A stretch of DNA of 64,000 nucleotides, taken from Acidobacteriota bacterium. Lineage in GTDB: Bacteria > Acidobacteriota > Terriglobia > Bryobacterales > Bryobacteraceae. Numbering within the stretch: position 1 is the first letter of the stretch; each line of letters begins with the position of its first letter. Below the pieces are notes generated by a model. The model did no database searches and was not told where the DNA came from. It was given only the letters and a program-made list of their open reading frames with translations. The stretch lies in assembly GCA_016213775.1 (NCBI GenBank), contig JACQZR010000073.1, forward strand, positions 1 to 64,000, read 5' to 3'. The position numbers and the translations under genes are program-made. Shown piece after piece: positions 22,397-32,225 of the stretch.

Positions 22397-24547
22397 ATGT
22401 TCAAACTGATCGCGCGATGGATACTGCGGTTGATGTTCCGCCTGGAGGTGTGCGGGGAGGCGCCGAAGAAACGGCCGGAAAGGCTGCTGGTGGTGCCCAA
22501 TCACCAATCCTTTTTTGACGGGATACTGATACAGTCCTTTCTGCCCTTGCGAGTGACGTGGGTGATCCACGCACAGATCGGGGCGATGTGGCATTTCAAG
22601 ATCCTGCTGAAGTTCATTCCGCACATACTGGTGGACGCGACGAATCCGATGAGCATGAAGCGGGTGGTGCAGTTGATCGAGACAGGTGCGCCCGTAGGGA
22701 TTTTCCCAGAAGGTCGCATCACGACCACCGGCAGCCTGATGAAGATCTACGACGGGACTGCGTTTCTGGCGGCTCGCACGGGGGCGTCGATACTGCCCGT
22801 ACGGGTGGATGGCGCCAAGCATTCGATATTCGGGCGGTTGAGTGCTCCGCATCCGATTCAGGCGAGGCCGCGGGTGCGGCTGACGTATCTTCCGATGACG
22901 AAGATCGTGATTCCGGAACCGCCCGAGGGCAAGTACTTATCAGCGAAAGTGCGGCGGCGGATGGCGGGCGAATCGATGCGGCAGTTGATGCAACGCAGTG
23001 TGATGGACGCGCGGGTTCCCACCACGCTGTACGACGCGCTGCTGGATGCGGCGGAGTTGTATGGCGAAGAGCGGACCATCATTGAAGACGTGCGGCCGAA
23101 GGTGGACACCTACGCCGATCTGATGAAGGCGACGCTGGCGCTGGGGAGGCTGATCTCGCGACTGGCGGCGGAGGGAGAACACGTAGGCGTACTTCTGCCG
23201 AATGCTGGTCCGGCGGTGGCGGCGATTTTCGGGATGTTCGCGACGCGGCGTATTCCGGCGATGCTCAACTATACGGCGGGTGTGGACGGGATGCAGAGCT
23301 GCATCGAGGCGGCGCGCGTGAAGACGATCGTCAGCTCGCGCGGGTTTGTGGAGAAGGCGAAGTTAGGTGAGAAGCTGGTGCAGTTGAAGGGCGTGCGGGT
23401 TGTCTACCTGGAAGATTTGCGTGGGCAGTTCACGCTGCTGGACAAGCTATGGCTGGTGTTGTGGGCGAAGCGGCATCCGAAGACGCTGCGGCGCGATGTG
23501 AAACCGGGCGATCCGGCGATCGTGCTGTTTACATCCGGATCGGAGGGCAAGCCGAAGGGAGTGGTGCTGTCGCACGACAACATCCTGGCGAATGTGGAGC
23601 AGGCGAAGGCGATGATCGAGTTCTCGTGCAAGGACCGGTTCTTTATGGCGCTGCCGATGTTCCACAGCTTCGGGCTGACGGTGGGAACGATCCTGCCGCT
23701 GATCAACGGCGTACAGATTTTCCTGTATCCGACGCCGTTGCATTACCGCATCATTCCGGAACTCACTTACGATCGCGATTGCACGGTGCTGTTCGGGACG
23801 CCGACATTCTTGAACTACTACGCGCGGTTTGCCAACAGCTATGACTTCTACCGGGTGCGTTACGTGATCGCGGGGGCGGAGAGGCTCAGCGAGGAAGTGC
23901 GGCTGACCTACATGGACCGGTTTGGAGTGCGCATTATAGAAGGCTACGGGGCAACGGAGTGCGCTCCGATTATTGCGGCCAACAGTCCGATGGCGTACCG
24001 GGCAGGGACGGTGGGACAAATTGCGCCGTCGATGGAATCGCGGCTGGTTCCGGTGCAGGGGATCGAGCACGGCGGGCGGCTGCATGTGCGTGGGCCGAAC
24101 GTGATGCTGGGGTATTTGAAGCATGACAAGCCCGGGGTGCTGCAAGCGCCGGAATCGGAGTTCGGACCGGGATGGTATGACACCGGCGACCTTGCCGATA
24201 TTGATGCGGACGGGTATCTGCATATCCTGGGGCGGTTGAAGCGGTTCGCAAAGATCGCGGGGGAGATGGTTTCGCTGGAGGTTGTCGAGCGGATTGCTTC
24301 GGTGGCCTCGCCGAGGCATCAGCACGCAGCGGTTGCGCGCAAGGACGCCAATCGTGGCGAGGTGCTGGTGCTGTATACGGAGGACCGGGGGTTGCGGCGC
24401 GATCAGTTGGTGGAAGCGGCGCGCAGCACGGGAGCGCCGGAGGTGGCGGTGCCACGGAAGATCGAGTACATTGACAAGCTGCCGAAGCTGGGAACGGGCA
24501 AGACGGATTACGTCACGTTGAATTCGCTCGCCACAGCCGCTGCCTGA
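22397..24547 (+). CDS. bifunctional phospholipid acyltransferase / acyl-ACP synthetase (Aas-like)
   Basis: The protein has 716 residues and two enzymes in one chain. The N-terminal 200 residues form a PlsC-type acyltransferase with the H-x4-D motif in NHQSFFDG and FPEGRITTTG. From about residue 230 an AMP-binding adenylating domain follows, with the P-loop LFTSGSEGKPKGVVLSH, YGATECAPII, the YDTGDLADIDADG core and the C-terminal lysine in KLGTGKTDY. This is the E. coli Aas arrangement, which re-acylates lysophospholipids (2-acyl-GPE) using fatty acids activated on ACP. It acts at the inner membrane. It is followed 11 bp later by a UMF1 transporter. Confidence 0.9.
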   Translation: MFKLIARWILRLMFRLEVCGEAPKKRPERLLVVPNHQSFFDGILIQSFLPLRVTWVIHAQIGAMWHFKILLKFIPHILVDATNPMSMKRVVQLIETGAPVGIFPEGRITTTGSLMKIYDGTAFLAARTGASILPVRVDGAKHSIFGRLSAPHPIQARPRVRLTYLPMTKIVIPEPPEGKYLSAKVRRRMAGESMRQLMQRSVMDARVPTTLYDALLDAAELYGEERTIIEDVRPKVDTYADLMKATLALGRLISRLAAEGEHVGVLLPNAGPAVAAIFGMFATRRIPAMLNYTAGVDGMQSCIEAARVKTIVSSRGFVEKAKLGEKLVQLKGVRVVYLEDLRGQFTLLDKLWLVLWAKRHPKTLRRDVKPGDPAIVLFTSGSEGKPKGVVLSHDNILANVEQAKAMIEFSCKDRFFMALPMFHSFGLTVGTILPLINGVQIFLYPTPLHYRIIPELTYDRDCTVLFGTPTFLNYYARFANSYDFYRVRYVIAGAERLSEEVRLTYMDRFGVRIIEGYGATECAPIIAANSPMAYRAGTVGQIAPSMESRLVPVQGIEHGGRLHVRGPNVMLGYLKHDKPGVLQAPESEFGPGWYDTGDLADIDADGYLHILGRLKRFAKIAGEMVSLEVVERIASVASPRHQHAAVARKDANRGEVLVLYTEDRGLRRDQLVEAARSTGAPEVAVPRKIEYIDKLPKLGTGKTDYVTLNSLATAAA

Positions 24548-24558
24548 CGAGACAACGC

Positions 24559-25878
24559 ATGCCGGACTATTCGAAGAAAGAACAACGCGCCTGGTACATG
24601 TACGACTGGGCGAATTCAGCGTTCTACACGACTGTAGTGACGCTGTTTCTTGGCCCTTACCTGACGTCGCTGGCAAAGAACGCGGCGGACGCGCAGGGAC
24701 TGGTGTATCCGTTGGGGATTCCGGTGGCGGCGCAATCGCTGTGGCCGTACATGGTGTCGTTGAGCGTTATGGTGCAGGTGGTGATCCTGCCGGTGTTCGG
24801 AGCGGTGGCCGATTACGGGCATCGCAAACGTGAGTTGATGGGAGCGCTGGCGTTCGTGGGCGCGGGCGCGTCGATGATGATGTTTTTCCTTGAAGGCACG
24901 CGCTATCTGATGGGGTGCGTGCTGTTCCTGGTTGCGAATTCGGCATTCGGGGCGGCGAACGTAGTGTACAACTCGTTTCTGCCGGAGATTGCGCCGCCGG
25001 AGGAGCGGGACAATGTATCGTCGCGAGGGTGGGGATTAGGGTATGTCGGCGGAGGCGTGCTGCTGGTGCTGAACCTGCTGCTCTATGCCAACGCCGAGAA
25101 GCTCGGATTGAATCAGGGGCTGGCGGTGCGGATCAGCCTGCTGTCGGCGGGGCTGTGGTGGGCCGGGTTCACACTGATTCCGCTCAGCGTGTTGAAGAAC
25201 CGGAATCCGCAGAAGAAAGCGCCGGTGGGCGAGAGCTATTTGGGCGCGGCGATGAAGCAGTTGTGGTCGACGGTGAAGGAAGTGTTCCGGCTGCCGCAGA
25301 CGCTGCGGTTCCTCATTGCCTACCTGGTTTATAACGACGCGATTCAGACGATCATCACGCTGGCGTCGCAGTTTGGGCAGGAGGAGTTGAAGTTGCCGGA
25401 GCAGGCGCTGATCACGGCGATTCTGATTGCGCAGTTTGTCGGGGTGGTGGGGGCGCTGTTCTTCAACTGGATCGCGGGACGGATCGGCAACAAATACACA
25501 GTGATGCTGTCGCTGGCGATTTACTGCATCGTGTTGATCTATGTGTATGGGTTCGTTTCCACGGAGATGGAGTTTTATTTTATGGCGGGGGCGATTGGGG
25601 CGATTATGGGAGGCAGCCAGGCGCTGAGCCGGTCTCTGTACTCGTTCATGATTCCGAAGGGACATGAAGCGGAGTACTATTCGATCTACGAAATCAGCGA
25701 TAAGGGAACGAGCTGGTTGGGGCCGCTGTTCTTTGGGCTGGCGCTGCAGTTCACGGGGAATTACCGGATTTCGATTTTGTCGTTGATTCTGTTTTTTGTG
25801 GTGGGACTGGCGGTATTGTGGACGGTGAATGTGCGGGAGGCGGCGCGGGAGGCCGGGAATGCTCCGCCGCCGCGGTAG
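24559..25878 (+). CDS. MFS transporter of the UMF1/Atg22-like family
   Basis: The protein has 439 residues with about 12 membrane segments. The N-terminal RAWYMYDWANSAFYTTVVT is the signature of the UMF1 family, and GGSQALSRSLYSFMIPKGHE near residue 350 is its second signature. A large central loop (KNRNPQKKAPVGESYLGAAM) separates the halves. Bacterial members are mostly uncharacterised; the yeast relative Atg22 exports amino acids. The gene lies 11 bp after the Aas-like gene and was probably co-transcribed with it, which might point to a lipid or fatty-acid related substrate (inference). Confidence 0.88.
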   Translation: MPDYSKKEQRAWYMYDWANSAFYTTVVTLFLGPYLTSLAKNAADAQGLVYPLGIPVAAQSLWPYMVSLSVMVQVVILPVFGAVADYGHRKRELMGALAFVGAGASMMMFFLEGTRYLMGCVLFLVANSAFGAANVVYNSFLPEIAPPEERDNVSSRGWGLGYVGGGVLLVLNLLLYANAEKLGLNQGLAVRISLLSAGLWWAGFTLIPLSVLKNRNPQKKAPVGESYLGAAMKQLWSTVKEVFRLPQTLRFLIAYLVYNDAIQTIITLASQFGQEELKLPEQALITAILIAQFVGVVGALFFNWIAGRIGNKYTVMLSLAIYCIVLIYVYGFVSTEMEFYFMAGAIGAIMGGSQALSRSLYSFMIPKGHEAEYYSIYEISDKGTSWLGPLFFGLALQFTGNYRISILSLILFFVVGLAVLWTVNVREAAREAGNAPPPR

Positions 25879-25904: not shown

Positions 25905-28532
25905 TTATTCGCTGTCGCCGGTGATCACCAGACCCGAGGGGAGTTCCTCACCGAAGATGGAGGACATGTCGCGGTCAGCTTCTCCGTTGAGAATAGCGAG
26001 GGCGGATTCGTCGCTGCCCACTGCTTTTCTTGCGAAGGCGAATGAAGCTTCGGAGAGGTCGCGCGCGGCGTCGCCGGTGCGCATTGCAATCACTGCGATG
26101 GCCTCGGCGGCGGTCTTCACTTTGCCAAGCGTTTCGATCCATCGGGAAACAGTAGCCGCCGGCAACACTTGATTGATGGGGCCGTAGAACAACCTCCGCG
26201 CACCAAGCCGCGAGAGGCACCACAGCTCGCTGGCGGTAAAATCGTTGGCCCTGACGCGTTTCACCAACGCCTCGCCAAGCTCGGTCCTGGTCTGCATGGG
26301 GAGCAGTTCCAGGCTCGACGCGGTTCGCCACATCTCGCGCATCAGGCTGCTGTTGAGGCGGACCTTTTTCTGCCCACGGGGCAGCAGATTTGCTGAAAGG
26401 CGCTGGTAGATGTCTACCTGCTGATTGCGATTGAGGCCGCCGGCGAGGCGGCCCCAGATGATCCACCATTCGATTTCGCACTGCGTTTGGTTAGAGAAGG
26501 TGAGCCCTGAAGCGTAGATACGGCGAGCCTGTTCAATGCGCAGATCGTCGCCGGGGAAACCGAAGCCCGGCCTCAGACAGAAGCCCGTGAGATTGAGCCA
26601 ACGCGCCTCATAGGAAGGCCCGCGTTTACGGCCTTCCGAGTGTTCCATCAACTTGTCTGCCAGCCGCCGGATTGCGCTGGACGGCCACGAATTGCGGCCC
26701 AGCGCCATTGTCTGTTCCAGGCGCGAAGGGAGTTCCTCGGGTGCAAGCGCGCCTTGGCCGAACGTCGCCGTAATCAACTCCTCGGCCTTGGCCACCGCTT
26801 CATCGCTCACCACCGCCGCCGGCTTTTTGACAGCGGATTCGGCACGTTTGCGCAATTCGAATTGCAGGCGCCACCGCTGCTCGCTCACTTTTGATTCCGC
26901 CCAAATCTCCAGCGTCCCCACCTCAGTAAGGCGCGCGCCTAACTTCACCGGAATCAGCCGTTCTTCGATCTTCTTGCCAAACCGGATCACCGCATTGAGC
27001 GGGGCATGCTGGTGCACCGTGTCATTCACTTCCTGCGAGGTGAACTCGACGACATCGCCGATGTTGTCCTCGGTACGGGTAAGCGAACTGTAGAGGCGGA
27101 ACGACACGGGGCGGTTGGCAACAAGCTGCAGACCCTCCAGATCGAGGTCCACCGTGCTGCCCTCCTCGGTGCCGCGTGGAGCCAGACACACTGTGCGGAC
27201 CTTCTCCTCAGCGCCCCCAATACCGATGAAATAGGCGCGAGGCAACCCACCGCGCACGAGCACTCCGCTGCCGCCATGCCGGACGTAAGAGTAGTAAGCC
27301 GCGCCCACCGACACTGCGAGGTCGAGATCCTGATTCTCAAAAACAGTAGGTTCGGCGTCGTACCACTGCCCCACCACTTGCTTCACACGCTTGCGACAAA
27401 TCTCCGGGATGAAGAAGCCGCCGTTGAACAGCACGGCATCGATCTTCTCCACGCCGGACGAAGACAGGAACGAGGACAGGTGGCGCGTCACCGCGGGATC
27501 GGCAACGTAGGGCAGCCCGAGTTCGCGGAAGAGGCTCTTCTTTTCTTCCTTGGGCTGATCGCCGAGTTTGCAGAACGGCAGGAACCCCTCGAGCGCCAGT
27601 TCCAGCACTTCCTCTCGCAGAATCTCCGTGCGCAGCGTTCCACCAATGAGTGACGACCCCGACCCGAGCACCGTGATCTCGACACTCTTGCGCGTGCCGT
27701 CGGTGAGCAGTTGTTCCTTGGCACTGGCGCACTGACGCCGCAGCCCGCTCCGCTGCCTTACGGAAAGCGGCTTGCCGAGTTTCGCTTCCACCAGCCATGC
27801 CAGGGTGAGGTCGAGGTTGTCGCCGCCGAGCAGAAGGTGTTTGCCGACGGCGGTGCGGGTGAAGTTGACGCGATCGCCTTCGCGGCTGACACGGATTACG
27901 GTGAAGTCGCTTGTGCCGCCGCCAACGTCGCAAACCAGAACAGTCTGGCCGTCAAACAACGATTTGCGCGATTGCGTAAGATGGTTCGCGATCCAGGAAT
28001 AGAATGCGGCGGCGGGCTCTTCCAGGAGTGTGAGTTTCTCCAGGCCCGCTTCCCGCGCGGCCATCACAGTCAACTCGCGAGCCTCTTCGTCAAACGATGC
28101 CGGCACCGTGAGCACGACGTCCTGCTGGGCAATCGGCAGATCGGGGAAGCGCTTGTTCCATGCCTCGCCCAGATGGGCGACAATCCTGCCGGACACCTCC
28201 ACTGGCGAGAAGACGCGGCCCGCTTCCTGGGCGTCCCACGGCAGGATCTTAGCGGTGCGATCGGCCTCGGAATTCGACAGCCAGCTTTTGGCACTATGCA
28301 CTGACCGGGTGGGCACCAGCGCGCCCTGTTCGCGCGCATAGACACCGGCCACGGGAGTATCGGCGAGATAAAGGAACGACGGCAACGTACGGCGCGCTTC
28401 GGTGCGTCCTTCCGCTACCAGTTGCGGGACCTCGAGTACGTGAATCGGCGGAAACTCCGCTTCGCCCGCGTCCCTGGGATCGATGAAGGACAGGGCCGAG
28501 TTCGTTGTGCCGAGGTCGATTCCGATGTTCAC
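25905..28532 (-). CDS. Hsp70-family ATPase with long C-terminal extension (DUF3731 type)
   Basis: The protein has 875 residues. The N-terminal actin-like ATPase starts MNIGIDLGTTNSALSF, has the second phosphate loop VLVCDVGGGTSDFTVIRV and the adenosine motif FNGGFFIPEICRKRV. The substrate-binding half is replaced by a long helical C-terminal part (from about residue 600) as in DUF3731 Hsp70s; no EEVD-like tail or canonical lid was seen. The GTG start directly abuts the stop of the preceding Hsp70 gene, with no spacer, so it is translated with it. It is a specialised Hsp70, not DnaK. The client is unknown. Confidence 0.9.
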   Translation of the reverse strand: MNIGIDLGTTNSALSFIDPRDAGEAEFPPIHVLEVPQLVAEGRTEARRTLPSFLYLADTPVAGVYAREQGALVPTRSVHSAKSWLSNSEADRTAKILPWDAQEAGRVFSPVEVSGRIVAHLGEAWNKRFPDLPIAQQDVVLTVPASFDEEARELTVMAAREAGLEKLTLLEEPAAAFYSWIANHLTQSRKSLFDGQTVLVCDVGGGTSDFTVIRVSREGDRVNFTRTAVGKHLLLGGDNLDLTLAWLVEAKLGKPLSVRQRSGLRRQCASAKEQLLTDGTRKSVEITVLGSGSSLIGGTLRTEILREEVLELALEGFLPFCKLGDQPKEEKKSLFRELGLPYVADPAVTRHLSSFLSSSGVEKIDAVLFNGGFFIPEICRKRVKQVVGQWYDAEPTVFENQDLDLAVSVGAAYYSYVRHGGSGVLVRGGLPRAYFIGIGGAEEKVRTVCLAPRGTEEGSTVDLDLEGLQLVANRPVSFRLYSSLTRTEDNIGDVVEFTSQEVNDTVHQHAPLNAVIRFGKKIEERLIPVKLGARLTEVGTLEIWAESKVSEQRWRLQFELRKRAESAVKKPAAVVSDEAVAKAEELITATFGQGALAPEELPSRLEQTMALGRNSWPSSAIRRLADKLMEHSEGRKRGPSYEARWLNLTGFCLRPGFGFPGDDLRIEQARRIYASGLTFSNQTQCEIEWWIIWGRLAGGLNRNQQVDIYQRLSANLLPRGQKKVRLNSSLMREMWRTASSLELLPMQTRTELGEALVKRVRANDFTASELWCLSRLGARRLFYGPINQVLPAATVSRWIETLGKVKTAAEAIAVIAMRTGDAARDLSEASFAFARKAVGSDESALAILNGEADRDMSSIFGEELPSGLVITGDSE

Positions 28533-30353
28533 TTAAGCCACTCGCTCTCTGACGTTGAATTCCAGTTTCCAGCGCCGGCCGTCGCGCGCGACGCAGAACA
28601 GTTGCAGCATTCCGGTCTCGGTGACATCCGATTCGAGAGAGACACGGACCATCTCGCCCGATGTCCCGGCGAGCGTCACTTCCACGGGTGCGAGTTCTTC
28701 GAGATCCTCGGGCTTCCACTCGTCGAGCATCGCGCCGGCGCCGTCGTTCTTGCGTGAGGATGAACAGAAGAAGCGGAACTCGGCAGGTTCGCCAACCACC
28801 AGTCCAAACTCCCGGTCGGCAAAGCGGTGGGAGGTGCCTTCTTCCATGCCGAAGGGCACCACTGTGAGCGCCTTCATCGGAGGCGGCATACCGGGGATAG
28901 CCGGCATCGCGGTTTCGATGCCGACATAGTACGTACGCGGCACACCGCCGCGAATGCGAACGCCCTTGCCTCGCCGCGCCAATCCGTAATAAGCAGCACC
29001 GCGCGAGACTGCGTGCATCAGATCTTCGCCCAGGAGTGGCTGCGCAGTGGCCATGCCTTCTTCCGCGAGCCAGCCGTTGAGAACCGCCAGCAGCCGCTCG
29101 CGAATCACACCCGCGCGCAGCACTCCGCCGTTGAAGAGTACATGCGTGGGCGCGGCCATTCCACTAGCGGTACGCCGGACGGAGCCGTGCTCGGCGGTGG
29201 AGGCCTGCTGCCGCAGGAACCGTGCGAGCTGGCGCGTCACGGCCGCATCGGAGGCATAGGGAAGCCCAATCTCCTGAAGCGCGATTCTTCGCTGGCGGGC
29301 GGGCATTTCCTGCGAAGAGGTCTTCGGCAGGAAGCCTTCCAGGACGGTGCGCTCCACGTCGTCGCGCAGCAGCTTGGCTTTGATGGTTCCGCCTACGAGA
29401 CCCGTGCCGCGGCCGAGAATGGTGAGCGCGTGATCCTTGTCCTTGCCCCCTTCGGTTAGCAGCTTCTCCTTGCCCGCGCGGCACTGCTGCCAGAGCGCGT
29501 GAAACTGCATCATGTCGAGCTTGGTGTTCTTGGCGGCGAGTTGCTGTTCCACCAATCGTGCCAGCGCGAGATCGATGTTATCGCCGCCGAGCAGGATGTG
29601 ATCGCCGACAGCCGCGCGTTCCAGATTCAGCTCGCCGCCGCGCTCGGTGACGGCGATGAGGGTGAAGTCCGTCGTACCGCCGCCGATGTCGATCACGAGA
29701 ATCAGATCGCCCACGTTGACGCGCTCGCGCCAATCGGCATGCCGCTCCAGCCACGCGTAGAAGGCCGCCTGCGGCTCTTCAAGCAACGTGACCGTGGGGT
29801 AGCCCGCCTGCTCCGCTGCCTGCAGTGTCAGCTCACGAGCCACGGCGTCAAACGAAGCCGGCACAGTGACCAGAATCTGCTGCTCGACGAACGGCGCTTC
29901 GGGGTGCGCATGATCCCAGGCTTTGCGAATGTGCTGGAGGTAGTGCCGCGACGCTTCCAGCGGCGAAACTCTGCGCGTGCCTTCGGGCGCGTTCAGCGGC
30001 AGCAGCTCGGATGTGCGGTCCACGCCCGTGTGGGACAGCCACGATTTGGCGGAATTCACGAGGCGGTTTGACCGCTCCACGCCGCGCTTCTGCGCCAGCA
30101 TCCCGACGACGATGCCGGGCTCGGCGCCCCACGGCAGCTCCGTGGAGCCTTGGGGAAAATCCTTTTCATCGGGCAAGTAGAGCGAACTCGGCAGCAACGC
30201 TTCGGCGGCCACTTCGCCCGGGTTGACGAGTTGCGCCACCGGCTGGAGCCGCACCTCGGGCATCGAAAGCGGATCGCTGATTTGCGACGCGTCGGCATAG
30301 GCCACTCCGCAATTGGTGGTGCCTAGGTCAATTCCAATTACAAATTGGGACAT
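28533..30353 (-). CDS. Hsp70-family ATPase (second copy of the pair)
   Basis: The protein has 606 residues. The ATPase domain opens IGIDLGTTNCGVAYADAS, carries LILVIDIGGGTTDFTLIAV and the adenosine-site stretch HVLFNGGVLRAGVIRERLL. A beta-rich substrate-binding region (residues about 470-600) ends shortly after KLEFNVRERVA, without a helical lid. It lies 18 bp after the DUF2760 gene and directly before the 875-residue Hsp70. The three-gene set recurs in bacteria and is distinct from dnaK-dnaJ-grpE; no J-domain protein is present here. Confidence 0.9.
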   Translation of the reverse strand: MSQFVIGIDLGTTNCGVAYADASQISDPLSMPEVRLQPVAQLVNPGEVAAEALLPSSLYLPDEKDFPQGSTELPWGAEPGIVVGMLAQKRGVERSNRLVNSAKSWLSHTGVDRTSELLPLNAPEGTRRVSPLEASRHYLQHIRKAWDHAHPEAPFVEQQILVTVPASFDAVARELTLQAAEQAGYPTVTLLEEPQAAFYAWLERHADWRERVNVGDLILVIDIGGGTTDFTLIAVTERGGELNLERAAVGDHILLGGDNIDLALARLVEQQLAAKNTKLDMMQFHALWQQCRAGKEKLLTEGGKDKDHALTILGRGTGLVGGTIKAKLLRDDVERTVLEGFLPKTSSQEMPARQRRIALQEIGLPYASDAAVTRQLARFLRQQASTAEHGSVRRTASGMAAPTHVLFNGGVLRAGVIRERLLAVLNGWLAEEGMATAQPLLGEDLMHAVSRGAAYYGLARRGKGVRIRGGVPRTYYVGIETAMPAIPGMPPPMKALTVVPFGMEEGTSHRFADREFGLVVGEPAEFRFFCSSSRKNDGAGAMLDEWKPEDLEELAPVEVTLAGTSGEMVRVSLESDVTETGMLQLFCVARDGRRWKLEFNVRERVA

Positions 30354-30371
30354 CTTATGGGTGTTTCGCGG

Positions 30372-30896
30372 TTACTCTATTTCGATTTCGGCTGGAGCGA
30401 GAATGGAAGTGTCCTGCTTCACCCCGATGGTGGGCAGATCGATCTTTTCCGACTTCCAGCCGCGGTGGCGGAGCATTCCGCCCGACGGCGCAGGCCCGGC
30501 AGGCACGTTGCCGATGAACTTGACGTTGGCAGGGCCACCGGCGACCGAGGCTTTGGTGAAGGTGCCCTCGACCCCGTCGATGACCGGCGCGAGTTTGACA
30601 TAGCGGGTGAGCGTGGCCCGGCATTGTTCATGCATGGTGCGAACGGCCGCTCCCACCTGGTCGTCGTTGTAGGCCGAAATGTCTTCCATCAGGAAGTCAA
30701 TCAGGCGCGCGTCGCGTTGCAGAATCCCGAGCATCTGCAGCGCACCATCGCTAGGCTTCGGGGCCGGCGGTGGCGGTGGAGCAGGTTTCTCCTTTACCGG
30801 CTTGGCATATCCGAACGCGCCGGCAACAGCGGCTGGCAACTCGCCGCCGAACAGGATTCCGAAGAAACTGCTGAAGGCAAGAGAAATACGGCTCAA
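30372..30896 (-). CDS. DUF2760 family protein
   Basis: The protein has 174 residues. It has an N-terminal hydrophobic segment, a Pro-rich linker (EKPAPPPPPAPKPS) and then the DUF2760 core with ALQMLGILQRDARLIDFLME and GVEGTFTKASVAGG, ending GVKQDTSILAPAEIEIE. Genes for DUF2760 commonly precede paired Hsp70 genes, as here, and the three are taken to work together. It is the first gene of the operon; the promoter must lie in the 135 bp up to the DUF4143 ATPase gene, which is divergent. Confidence 0.88.
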   Translation of the reverse strand: MSRISLAFSSFFGILFGGELPAAVAGAFGYAKPVKEKPAPPPPPAPKPSDGALQMLGILQRDARLIDFLMEDISAYNDDQVGAAVRTMHEQCRATLTRYVKLAPVIDGVEGTFTKASVAGGPANVKFIGNVPAGPAPSGGMLRHRGWKSEKIDLPTIGVKQDTSILAPAEIEIE

Positions 30897-31058: not shown

Positions 31059-32225
31059 ATGTTGACCCGACGACTCGCACCCCGCTTGACTGGCCTCCTT
31101 CAGCATTCGCCCGCTGTGGTCCTCATCGGTCCTCGACAAACAGGGAAAACGACGCTGGCGTTGACTATCGCAGCCGGACGCGAGGCCGTTTACCTGGACC
31201 TGGAGAACGAGGATGATCGCGCGAAGCTGGCCAATCCGGCTCTCTATCTGGCGGATCACGCAACGCGGCTGGTGATTCTGGATGAGGTGCACCGGACCCC
31301 TGAGATTTTCCAACGGCTGCGCGGTGTGATTGACGCGGGGAGGCGGCGAGGCAAAGGGAACGGACGGTTTCTGCTGCTGGGATCAGCCTCGATGGACCTC
31401 TTGCGGCAGACTGGCGAAAGCCTGGCTGGGCGAATCTCGTATCTGGAGCTTGGACCCTTCGATGCGCTCGAGGTGGGCGGCTCGGAAACGGAGCGGCTGT
31501 GGGTGAGAGGCGGATTCCCCTTGAGTTTTCTGGCAGCCTCCGACGATCTCAGCCTGGAGTGGCGGCGCAACTTTATCCGCACCTACCTGGAACGTGATAT
31601 CCCGCAGTTTGGACCCAGGATCGCCGCGGAAACGCTTCGCCGGTTTTGGACGATGCTGGCTCATAACCAATGCCAGGTTCTGAATGCGGCGAACCTGGCA
31701 CGAGGACTTGGGGTGACCGGGAAGACGATTGCGGGGTATCTCGATTTGATGGTGGATCTGTTGTTGGTTCGCCGCCTGCAGCCGTGGCATAGCAACGCTG
31801 GTAAGCGGCTGACAAAGTCACCTAAAGTGTATGTTCGGGATACGGGCATTGCGCATGCATTGCTGGGAATTCGAGATAAGGAGGCGCTGCTCGGCCATCC
31901 GGTAGTTGGGCATACTTGGGAAAGCTTCGCTATCGAGACGCTGATCGGATGCGCGCCCGAAGGGTCGGAGGCGCACTACTACCGGACCGCGAATGGAACA
32001 GAGGTTGATCTGATCGTCACGCTGCCTGGGGGGAAACTATGGGCAATCGAGGTGAAACGAAGTTCCGCGCCACACCTGGAACGAGGTTTCCGCTCCGCTT
32101 GCCAGGATCTGCGTCCTGCGAGGCAGTTTGTTGTCTATCCCGGCGAGGAGCGGTTCCCGATGGATGAATCAACGGATGCTATCGGGCTGGTGGAACTGGG
32201 GCGAGAATTGCAGGCGATGAAGTGA
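31059..32225 (+). CDS. AAA-family ATPase with DUF4143 domain
   Basis: The protein has 388 residues from ATG 31059 (MLTRRLAPRLTGLLQHSPAV), the usual start for the family; ATG 31032 in the same frame would add nine. The Walker A motif is GPRQTGKTTLAL, and Walker B is LVILDEVHRTPE. The middle contains FLLLGSASMDLL and the arginine-rich sensor stretch. The C-terminal DUF4143 has VDLIVTLPGGKLWAIEVKRS, a restriction-like nuclease-fold motif (D, then ExK). Such proteins are scattered in bacterial accessory DNA and their role is unknown. The palindrome and mini-ORF before it suggest autoregulation. Confidence 0.85.
   Translation: MLTRRLAPRLTGLLQHSPAVVLIGPRQTGKTTLALTIAAGREAVYLDLENEDDRAKLANPALYLADHATRLVILDEVHRTPEIFQRLRGVIDAGRRRGKGNGRFLLLGSASMDLLRQTGESLAGRISYLELGPFDALEVGGSETERLWVRGGFPLSFLAASDDLSLEWRRNFIRTYLERDIPQFGPRIAAETLRRFWTMLAHNQCQVLNAANLARGLGVTGKTIAGYLDLMVDLLLVRRLQPWHSNAGKRLTKSPKVYVRDTGIAHALLGIRDKEALLGHPVVGHTWESFAIETLIGCAPEGSEAHYYRTANGTEVDLIVTLPGGKLWAIEVKRSSAPHLERGFRSACQDLRPARQFVVYPGEERFPMDESTDAIGLVELGRELQAMK

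Follow-up and report, generated by a model that had tools for sequence, protein, structure and literature searches.

A DUF2760-Hsp70-Hsp70 gene trio that probably forms a bacterial Hsp70 machine driven by a partner other than a J-protein

PMC7289447 calls J-proteins obligatory partners of Hsp70; the HPD motif of their J-domain points to R167, and D393 is the linker partner of that arginine. For HscA and HscC, PMC8215388 describes specialised J-proteins and an ability to work without an exchange factor. The subject here is a three-gene locus in a window of 64,000 nucleotides (nt) from an Acidobacteriota bacterium of the Bryobacteraceae (assembly GCA_016213775.1, contig JACQZR010000073.1, positions 1 to 64,000; "the window" is this whole stretch). 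On the minus strand between 25905 and 30896 it encodes a DUF2760 protein (D), an Hsp70 without a helical lid (H1) and a second Hsp70 with a DUF3731 tail (H2). By residue comparison, the J-docking and linker residues of H1 and H2 are changed while the ATPase centre is intact, and the trio probably forms an Hsp70 machine driven by a partner other than a J-protein.

The two Hsp70s share with DnaK of the DnaK/DnaJ/GrpE system the ATPase fold, the catalytic residues and a domain resembling the beta part of the substrate-binding domain (SBD-beta). They differ from that system in lying on a contig without a J-protein or GrpE, in their rewritten J-docking and linker residues, and in the lid, which H1 lacks and which H2 replaces by DUF3731. 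Their scores are far under the cut-off of the NCBIfam DnaK equivalog TIGR02350 (822.55 bits, against 56.6 bits for H1 and 77.9 bits for H2). HscA/HscB is the best NCBIfam resemblance of H1 and H2 (80 and 93-95 bits), but the cut-offs of 620-709 bits are not reached either (80.3 and 93.3 bits for the HscA equivalog TIGR01991, cut-off 708.55 bits), the identified flanking genes are not isc genes and the J-docking site is changed. HscC with the tail-anchored DjlB and DjlC is a system in which a specialised Hsp70 works without GrpE and has its own partners attached to the membrane (PMC8215388), and the trio would resemble it if D is attached as we infer. However, E. coli HscC keeps R167, N170, T173 and D393 and its partners are J-proteins, and DUF2760 differs from the tail-anchored DjlB and DjlC in giving no J-domain match and in having its hydrophobic part at the N-terminus. 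In Pfam, DUF2760 (without a function) and DUF3731 ("DNA-K related protein") are listed as separate families, whereas here they are parts of one unit.

Residues were counted in 71 H1 and 58 H2 proteins (DnaK numbering), one H1 and three H2 of less than 500 amino acids having been removed beforehand. D8, G10, T11, K70, P143, E171, D194, G196-198, T199, D201 and K270 are invariant in both families (71/71 and 58/58). K70, E171, D194, T199 and D201 are catalytic residues of the Hsp70 ATPase. R167 is found in none of the 71 H1, 56 of which have threonine instead. N170 and T173, which we take to be J-domain contacts, are replaced as well, the former by glutamate in all 129 proteins and the latter by glutamine in all H1 and by glutamine, alanine or leucine in H2. 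D393 is absent throughout (0/71 and 0/58), L392 has become glycine in all 129, and L391 is glycine in 62 of 71 H1 and 47 of 58 H2; at the place of the linker D388-VLLL-D393, most H1 have R-I-R-G-G-T/V and most H2 have (R/L)-(I/V)-(G/R)-G-G-(S/L/A). Within the window, the DnaK segment RIINEPTA, which holds R167, N170, E171 and T173, corresponds to TLLEEPQA in H1 (29766-29789) and TLLEEPAA in H2 (28008-28031), and the interdomain linker to GVRIRGGVPR in H1 (28935-28964) and GVLVRGGLPR in H2 (27237-27266), all on the minus strand. An alignment-free check of the docking segment returned RIINEPTA, RLLNEPTA and RLINEPTA for the references DnaK, HscA and HscC, TLLEEPQA for 49 of 71 H1, and TLLEEPAA (19) or RLLEEPQA (17) for the 58 H2, with three H1 and one H2 outside the pattern. 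All four residues R167, N170, T173 and D393 are kept in E. coli DnaK and HscA as in HscC, and in the three DnaK-type proteins of the source genome. Across several phyla, the module joins a kept ATPase centre to a rewritten J-docking site and linker.

In the source genome (10.96 Mb in 314 contigs), the Hsp70 profile gives nine matches, which fall into eight genes. Three of these genes are of DnaK type, on contigs C213, C175 and C17, each adjoined by a J-domain gene and the one on C17 with GrpE as well. In total, J-domains are matched at seven places and GrpE at two, all on other contigs than the one that carries the window (C272, 81,459 bases), where neither family is matched. In a tree, H1 and H2 together are split from DnaK, HscA, HscC (one HscC was included) and the genome's five other Hsp70s with support 1.0. 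An earlier note, made from the letters of the window, had described the trio as separate from the housekeeping DnaK system and without a J-protein or GrpE; both statements hold, with the DnaK genes on other contigs and J genes beside them. The same note had called the genes tightly packed, the first Hsp70 lid-less and the second extended by a long unrelated C-terminal half. The measured spacers are 18 nt between D and H1 and 0 nt between H1 and H2, where the GTG start of H2 immediately follows the stop of H1. H1 (28533-30353, 606 amino acids) does end directly after its SBD-beta-like part; it scores 57 bits with PF00012 and 992 bits with an H1 profile, the window's own H1 being among the sequences used to build that profile. 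H2 (25905-28532, 875 amino acids) scores 72 bits with PF00012 and 216 bits with PF12531, the DUF3731 family, whose Pfam cut-off is 25 bits. The extension is real, but it makes up about a third of the protein and not a half, and it is all-helical from about residue 577.

That boundary comes from an AlphaFold2 (AF2) model of H2 (mean predicted local distance difference test, pLDDT, 84.4), which consists of an Hsp70 ATPase and beta domain followed by about 15 helices in residues 577-848. Superposed on DnaK and BiP, the model gives Z scores of 37-40, with 460-466 residues aligned for chains that include SBD-beta; the root-mean-square deviation of residues 1-562 from such chains is 3.7-5.1 Å, and 8.9 Å in one chain. 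H1 shares the SBD-beta-like region with H2 by sequence comparison. The helical lid (SBD-alpha) is absent from H1 and in H2 its place is taken by the DUF3731 tail (residues 640-869, 25926-26615, minus strand). Considered as a candidate HEAT/ARM solenoid, this tail is all-helical in the full-length model and has weak best sequence matches, to an engineered protein (E 0.08) and FliG (E 0.2). Some Hsp70-fold proteins have no lid, and lid loss does not exclude a protein from the superfamily. H1 and H2 are 37% identical over 610 amino acids, and a tree of 71 H1 and 66 H2 separates them by one split with support 1.0, from which it follows that the duplication is older than the genera compared. In the unrooted trees the H1, H1+H2 and H1-versus-H2 splits all have support 1.0; the supports are taken from the unrooted files, the labels 0.906 (H1+H2), 0.248 (H1) and 0.863 having been shifted by re-rooting. 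When the references are included H2 is not a clade and the root falls inside it, so the order of duplication is not fixed by the tree.

The association of the three genes recurs. With D as query and one genome per species (84,980 species), at least 554 relatives were found among 591 stretches, and the best 80 loci were kept. Among these 80 there are 46 with D, H1 and H2, 19 with D and H1, 11 with D and H2 and four with D alone, three of the latter being cut by a contig end. Because the search started from D and kept its 80 closest loci, it cannot show how frequent H1 or H2 is without D; on occurrence without D, two genome surveys inform for DUF3731 only. A survey of 247 Acidobacteriota genomes found DUF2760 above its cut-off in six, and DUF3731 in the same six. 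A seventh DUF2760 match (G119, E 3.1e-4, 22.3 bits, in a frame of 1021 amino acids) is under the cut-off and was put down to chance. In 300 Burkholderiales genomes (the order of Noviherbaspirillum), DUF3731 occurs in 14 and DUF2760 in 15, all 14 being common to both; in the fifteenth, D and H1 sit on a 3,078-base contig that is cut close behind H1. If the families were independent, about 0.15 and 0.7 shared genomes would be expected in the two surveys, in a calculation that ignores genome relatedness. Neither family is found in any of 14 control genomes. The earlier note had named unrelated partners in most genomes as the outcome that would tell against a recurring trio; this was not seen, since 20 of the 21 DUF2760-positive genomes also hold DUF3731. 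The families are present in 2-5% of the genomes in the two surveys, their distribution is patchy, and the trio hosts are scattered soil and water bacteria of several phyla. Some individual loci deviate in form: one of the six acidobacterial genomes (G187) has D and H2 adjoining and no H1 there. A Burkholderiales genome (G445) has its DUF3731 match in two pieces, and one long frame at its locus L126 had looked like an H1-H2 fusion, which was rejected as the H2 match starts at profile position 73. The H2 tail of this locus is split over two frames and the match is partial, which speaks for decay or an assembly error. In a further acidobacterial genome (G196; loci L026 and L027), the genes of the trio are divided between the ends of two contigs, and a flanking frame looks by eye like a proteobacterial regulator of polyhydroxybutyrate synthesis, a case of contamination or transfer. 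L027 was dropped from the loci, as were L023-L025, which duplicate L076, L051 and L061.

Gene spacing is short in most loci. The gap between D and H1 is at most 30 nt in 52 of 70 loci, 32 of which have a 4-nt overlap, and that between H1 and H2 is at most 30 nt in 37 of 48; in these counts the start nearest the preceding stop was chosen, which biases towards short gaps. Over 47 complete trios, the correlation between the pairwise distances of D, H1 and H2 is 0.90-0.91 (species tree not subtracted), as for genes inherited together. Linkage of the three genes is well supported and firm as far as the surveys reach. Unlinked copies also occur. For ten of the 19 D+H1 loci the rest of the genome was searched, and DUF3731 is found elsewhere in nine of the ten. 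Eight of the nine distant H2 places, six from planctomycetes, were retrieved, and neither D nor H1 adjoins H2 at any of them. Four of the 11 D+H2 genomes have an H1-like gene elsewhere; the seven counted as lacking H1 include L053, where two partial matches seem to be the two ends of a single H2 that was cut. In a metagenome-assembled genome (MAG) of the Gemmataceae (L066), D has no adjoining Hsp70 despite room after it, and the assembly holds a single H1 and a single H2 at other places.

D itself (30372-30896, minus strand, 174 amino acids) begins with TTG, and a Shine-Dalgarno-like AAGAGG stands just 5' of its start. It scores 131 bits with PF10816, the DUF2760 family (cut-off 25 bits), which matches all 77 members of the D alignment (the window's protein and 76 of 86 D references; the H2 alignment was built likewise from the window and 51 of 55 H2 references). 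The J-domain PF00226 and GrpE PF01025 are absent among the 19 families that match any of the 77 D sequences at E<=1, and D was rejected as a J-domain, a GrpE or a known fold in the absence of a convincing Pfam, PDB-sequence or fold match. An AF2 model (pLDDT 88.6) shows a hydrophobic N-terminal helix at residues 3-17 (30846-30890; within RISLAFSSFFGILF), then a tether rich in proline, alanine and lysine at about residues 28-47 (30756-30815; the lowest pLDDT block is 31-40), and the DUF2760 core at residues 50-172 (30381-30749), with a helical hairpin (residues 48-70 paired with 78-99) and a small end part that contains strands. Many D proteins start with a motif like R-x-S-x-A-F-x-x-F-F-x-x-L followed by a proline-rich stretch. 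Among 87 D proteins read, 12 have N-terminal segments with a Kyte-Doolittle value of at least 1.6, and nine of 23 that were re-read have transmembrane-like segments before the tether, with uncertain gene starts there. These are from Desulfobacterales, Methylothermaceae, Gemmataceae, Salinibacteraceae and a Bradyrhizobium plasmid, and the segments are mostly followed by arginine or lysine, which would place the core in the cytoplasm. The C-terminus of the family is a nearly invariant PAE(V/I)E (30375-30398 in the window), faintly like the EEVD tail of eukaryotic Hsp70.

We tentatively read the three products as one Hsp70-type ATP machine without J-proteins, in which DUF2760 would replace the J-protein, perhaps at the membrane, and put the chance of this being right in full just short of even. 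H1 and H2 would be a paralogue pair with intact ATPase centres and a substrate-binding beta domain, H1 working without a lid and H2 with the all-helical DUF3731 tail in the lid's place. D would be the dedicated partner that substitutes for the J-protein: its hydrophobic or transmembrane N-terminus and proline-rich tether would keep its core at the cytoplasmic face of the membrane, and the core would recruit or trigger H1 and H2 on clients. That H1 and H2 have left the J-protein system is suggested by clear residue changes, while the near-even chance covers the reading as a whole; a physical complex, D as its trigger, a membrane site for most members and a chaperone output are what we infer. 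A more pointed version, in which H1 and H2 act as a J-independent asymmetric pair and DUF2760 is a new class of co-chaperone, unrelated to J-proteins and GrpE, that triggers the ATPase and places it at the membrane, is put forward with more reserve and may rather easily be wrong. The earlier note's "dedicated chaperone or signalling machine" was vague on this point; the evidence leans to the chaperone branch, and the changed J-docking site has been added to it. If the reading is true, an Hsp70 motor can couple to a trigger other than a J-protein, and two families of uncertain function, DUF2760 and DUF3731, would gain one common, testable role.

Several findings weigh against this reading. Twenty of the 58 H2, most of them from Proteobacteria, retain R167, and some H2 could for this reason still be J-responsive, although N170 and D393 are changed there too; contact with J-proteins may have been lost last in H2. 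The trio is not alone in this change, since some docking or linker residues are also missing from two further Hsp70-like genes of the source genome (C175:51108-51827 and C230:12630-13628). For the hairpin of D, the structure searches gave no relative that convinces (at best Foldseek E 0.56 and Z 5.0), and the fold matches up to that Z were disbelieved, covering just 50-70 residues; a missing match does not show that the fold is new. In the profile-aligned part of D, a Kyte-Doolittle value of at least 1.6 is reached by four of the 72 proteins long enough to score (15 of 87 were too short), and a hydrophobic moment of at least 0.4 by none of the 72. The window's D has 1.52 and the N-terminal segment is short in most D, which makes the membrane step weak for this protein; its membrane attachment is a guess by homology. 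In addition, H1 is missing from the assemblies of seven of the 11 D+H2 genomes, an Alteromonadaceae MAG with D and H1 has no DUF3731, and the 2.7-Mb MAG of locus L111, where D stands at a contig end, gives no H1-type match. Given these losses and the unlinked copies, the core of the unit seems to be D with one Hsp70 or both, and H2 is retained oftener than H1. The earlier idea that the trio is kept together therefore stands for the recurring linkage and falls for the full set, which is not obligatory, some genomes keeping one Hsp70 only. Finally, interaction, ATPase activity and localisation of the trio proteins are all predictions from sequences and models.

The rival that survives best, though we think it unlikely, is that H2 is the nucleotide-exchange partner of the lid-less H1 in an Hsp110-like heterodimer, with D as adaptor. 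Eukaryotic Hsp110 is a nucleotide-exchange partner of Hsp70, and Hsp70-Hsp110 is likewise a pair of unequal Hsp70-fold proteins, one of them C-terminally extended. H1 and H2 are closely spaced paralogues of this kind (37% identity, split 1.0), GrpE is not matched on contig C272, and yeast Hsp110 Sse1 is among the Foldseek matches of H2, at ranks 46-47. DnaK structures rank above Sse1, however, and the catalytic residues are complete in both proteins. The extension here is DUF3731, and either partner can be absent from an assembly, as in the seven D+H2 genomes without H1 and the one D+H1 genome without DUF3731.

Improbable, in our estimate, is that H1 and H2 are ordinary Hsp70s specialised for certain clients, on which the cell's general J-proteins and GrpE act in trans while D brings clients only. 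The seven J-domain and two GrpE places of the genome would make this feasible, and the R167 of 20 H2 fits it. The loss of R167 from every H1 does not, nor do the changes to N170, T173, the linker and D393 in both families, and HscA and HscC, which are specialised too, keep those residues.

It is decidedly improbable that the trio has no folding role and that an Hsp70/actin-fold ATP switch is at work, D, H1 and H2 forming a membrane sensor or scaffold. In its favour, the linker and the lid, through which DnaK couples ATP to client trapping, are rebuilt here, the distribution is patchy, and no widely shared neighbour names a client; against this, the SBD-beta-like domain is retained, as the model shows for H2 and the sequence for H1.

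A mobile accessory or defence module is very improbable, for although a complete trio lies on a conjugative Bradyrhizobium plasmid beside trb/tra genes, D and H1 lie on a Thiodictyon plasmid near annotated anti-phage genes and 2-5% of the surveyed genomes have the families, D is unmatched in phage records (tblastn, E 1e-5), 78 pattern matches in viral contigs include no relative, PADLOC matches are weak and via the ATPase domain only, and a scan of 128 flanking frames shows no recurring defence family among the 25 commonest.

On the first of these plasmids (L031, pCC829_3 of Bradyrhizobium barranii) the trio lies between trb genes, with a MarR-type gene beside D, and a topoisomerase gene. On the second (L032, pTs485 of Candidatus Thiodictyon syntrophicum), D and H1 are downstream of DUF1156 and phospholipase D-like genes annotated as anti-phage, with a Uma2-family gene in between.

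DUF2760, DUF3731, PF10816, PF12531 and two InterPro numbers are named in none of the papers searched. One protein of the trio may nevertheless have been seen before. In Burkholderia pseudomallei, a 65-kDa "Hsp70 family protein" is present in the wild-type proteome and undetected in a dehydrogenase mutant, according to PMC7085900. The forward primer given there reads GEHILL in one frame, a motif found in 32 of 72 H1 and in none of 61 H2 and five reference Hsp70s, and an H1 of Burkholderia multivorans has a mass of 65.5 kDa. From motif and size, the B. pseudomallei protein is probably an H1. A "DnaK-related protein" of Photobacterium (PMC3706606) was dropped, as nothing ties it to H1 or H2. In Myxococcus xanthus, PMC8265645 gives 15 Hsp70 genes, all but one of which could be deleted.

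The neighbours were also considered as a guide to a client, and this was given up: clusters of flanking frames (trio and antisense frames removed) cover at most ten loci each, mostly of Bryobacterales, and other clusters are common families such as kinases and transporters. The frames were picked mechanically; 128 of the 149 nearest ones were scanned, 21 having been removed by hand for length or as likely spurious, and the commonest Pfam family is TPR, in five. Heat-shock control by HrcA/CIRCE was considered and rejected: within the window, no HrcA/CIRCE site was found at up to three mismatches. Nor was there a sigma-70-like promoter, and none stood out for the operon; there are seven terminator-like sites against 4.6 in shuffled sequences, none of which stood out either. 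On the D side, a divergent frame near 31062 (plus strand, about 31062-32225) has the Walker-type motif GPRQTGKTT. On the other side, a major facilitator superfamily (MFS) gene (plus strand, 24559-25878) converges on the trio with 26 nt between the stops; with a divergent frame at one end and a convergent gene at the other, the locus reads as a three-gene unit. This MFS gene encodes an Atg22-like transporter and follows an acyltransferase/AMP-ligase fusion (22397-24547, plus strand), and the two presumably resemble a lysophospholipid recycling pair.

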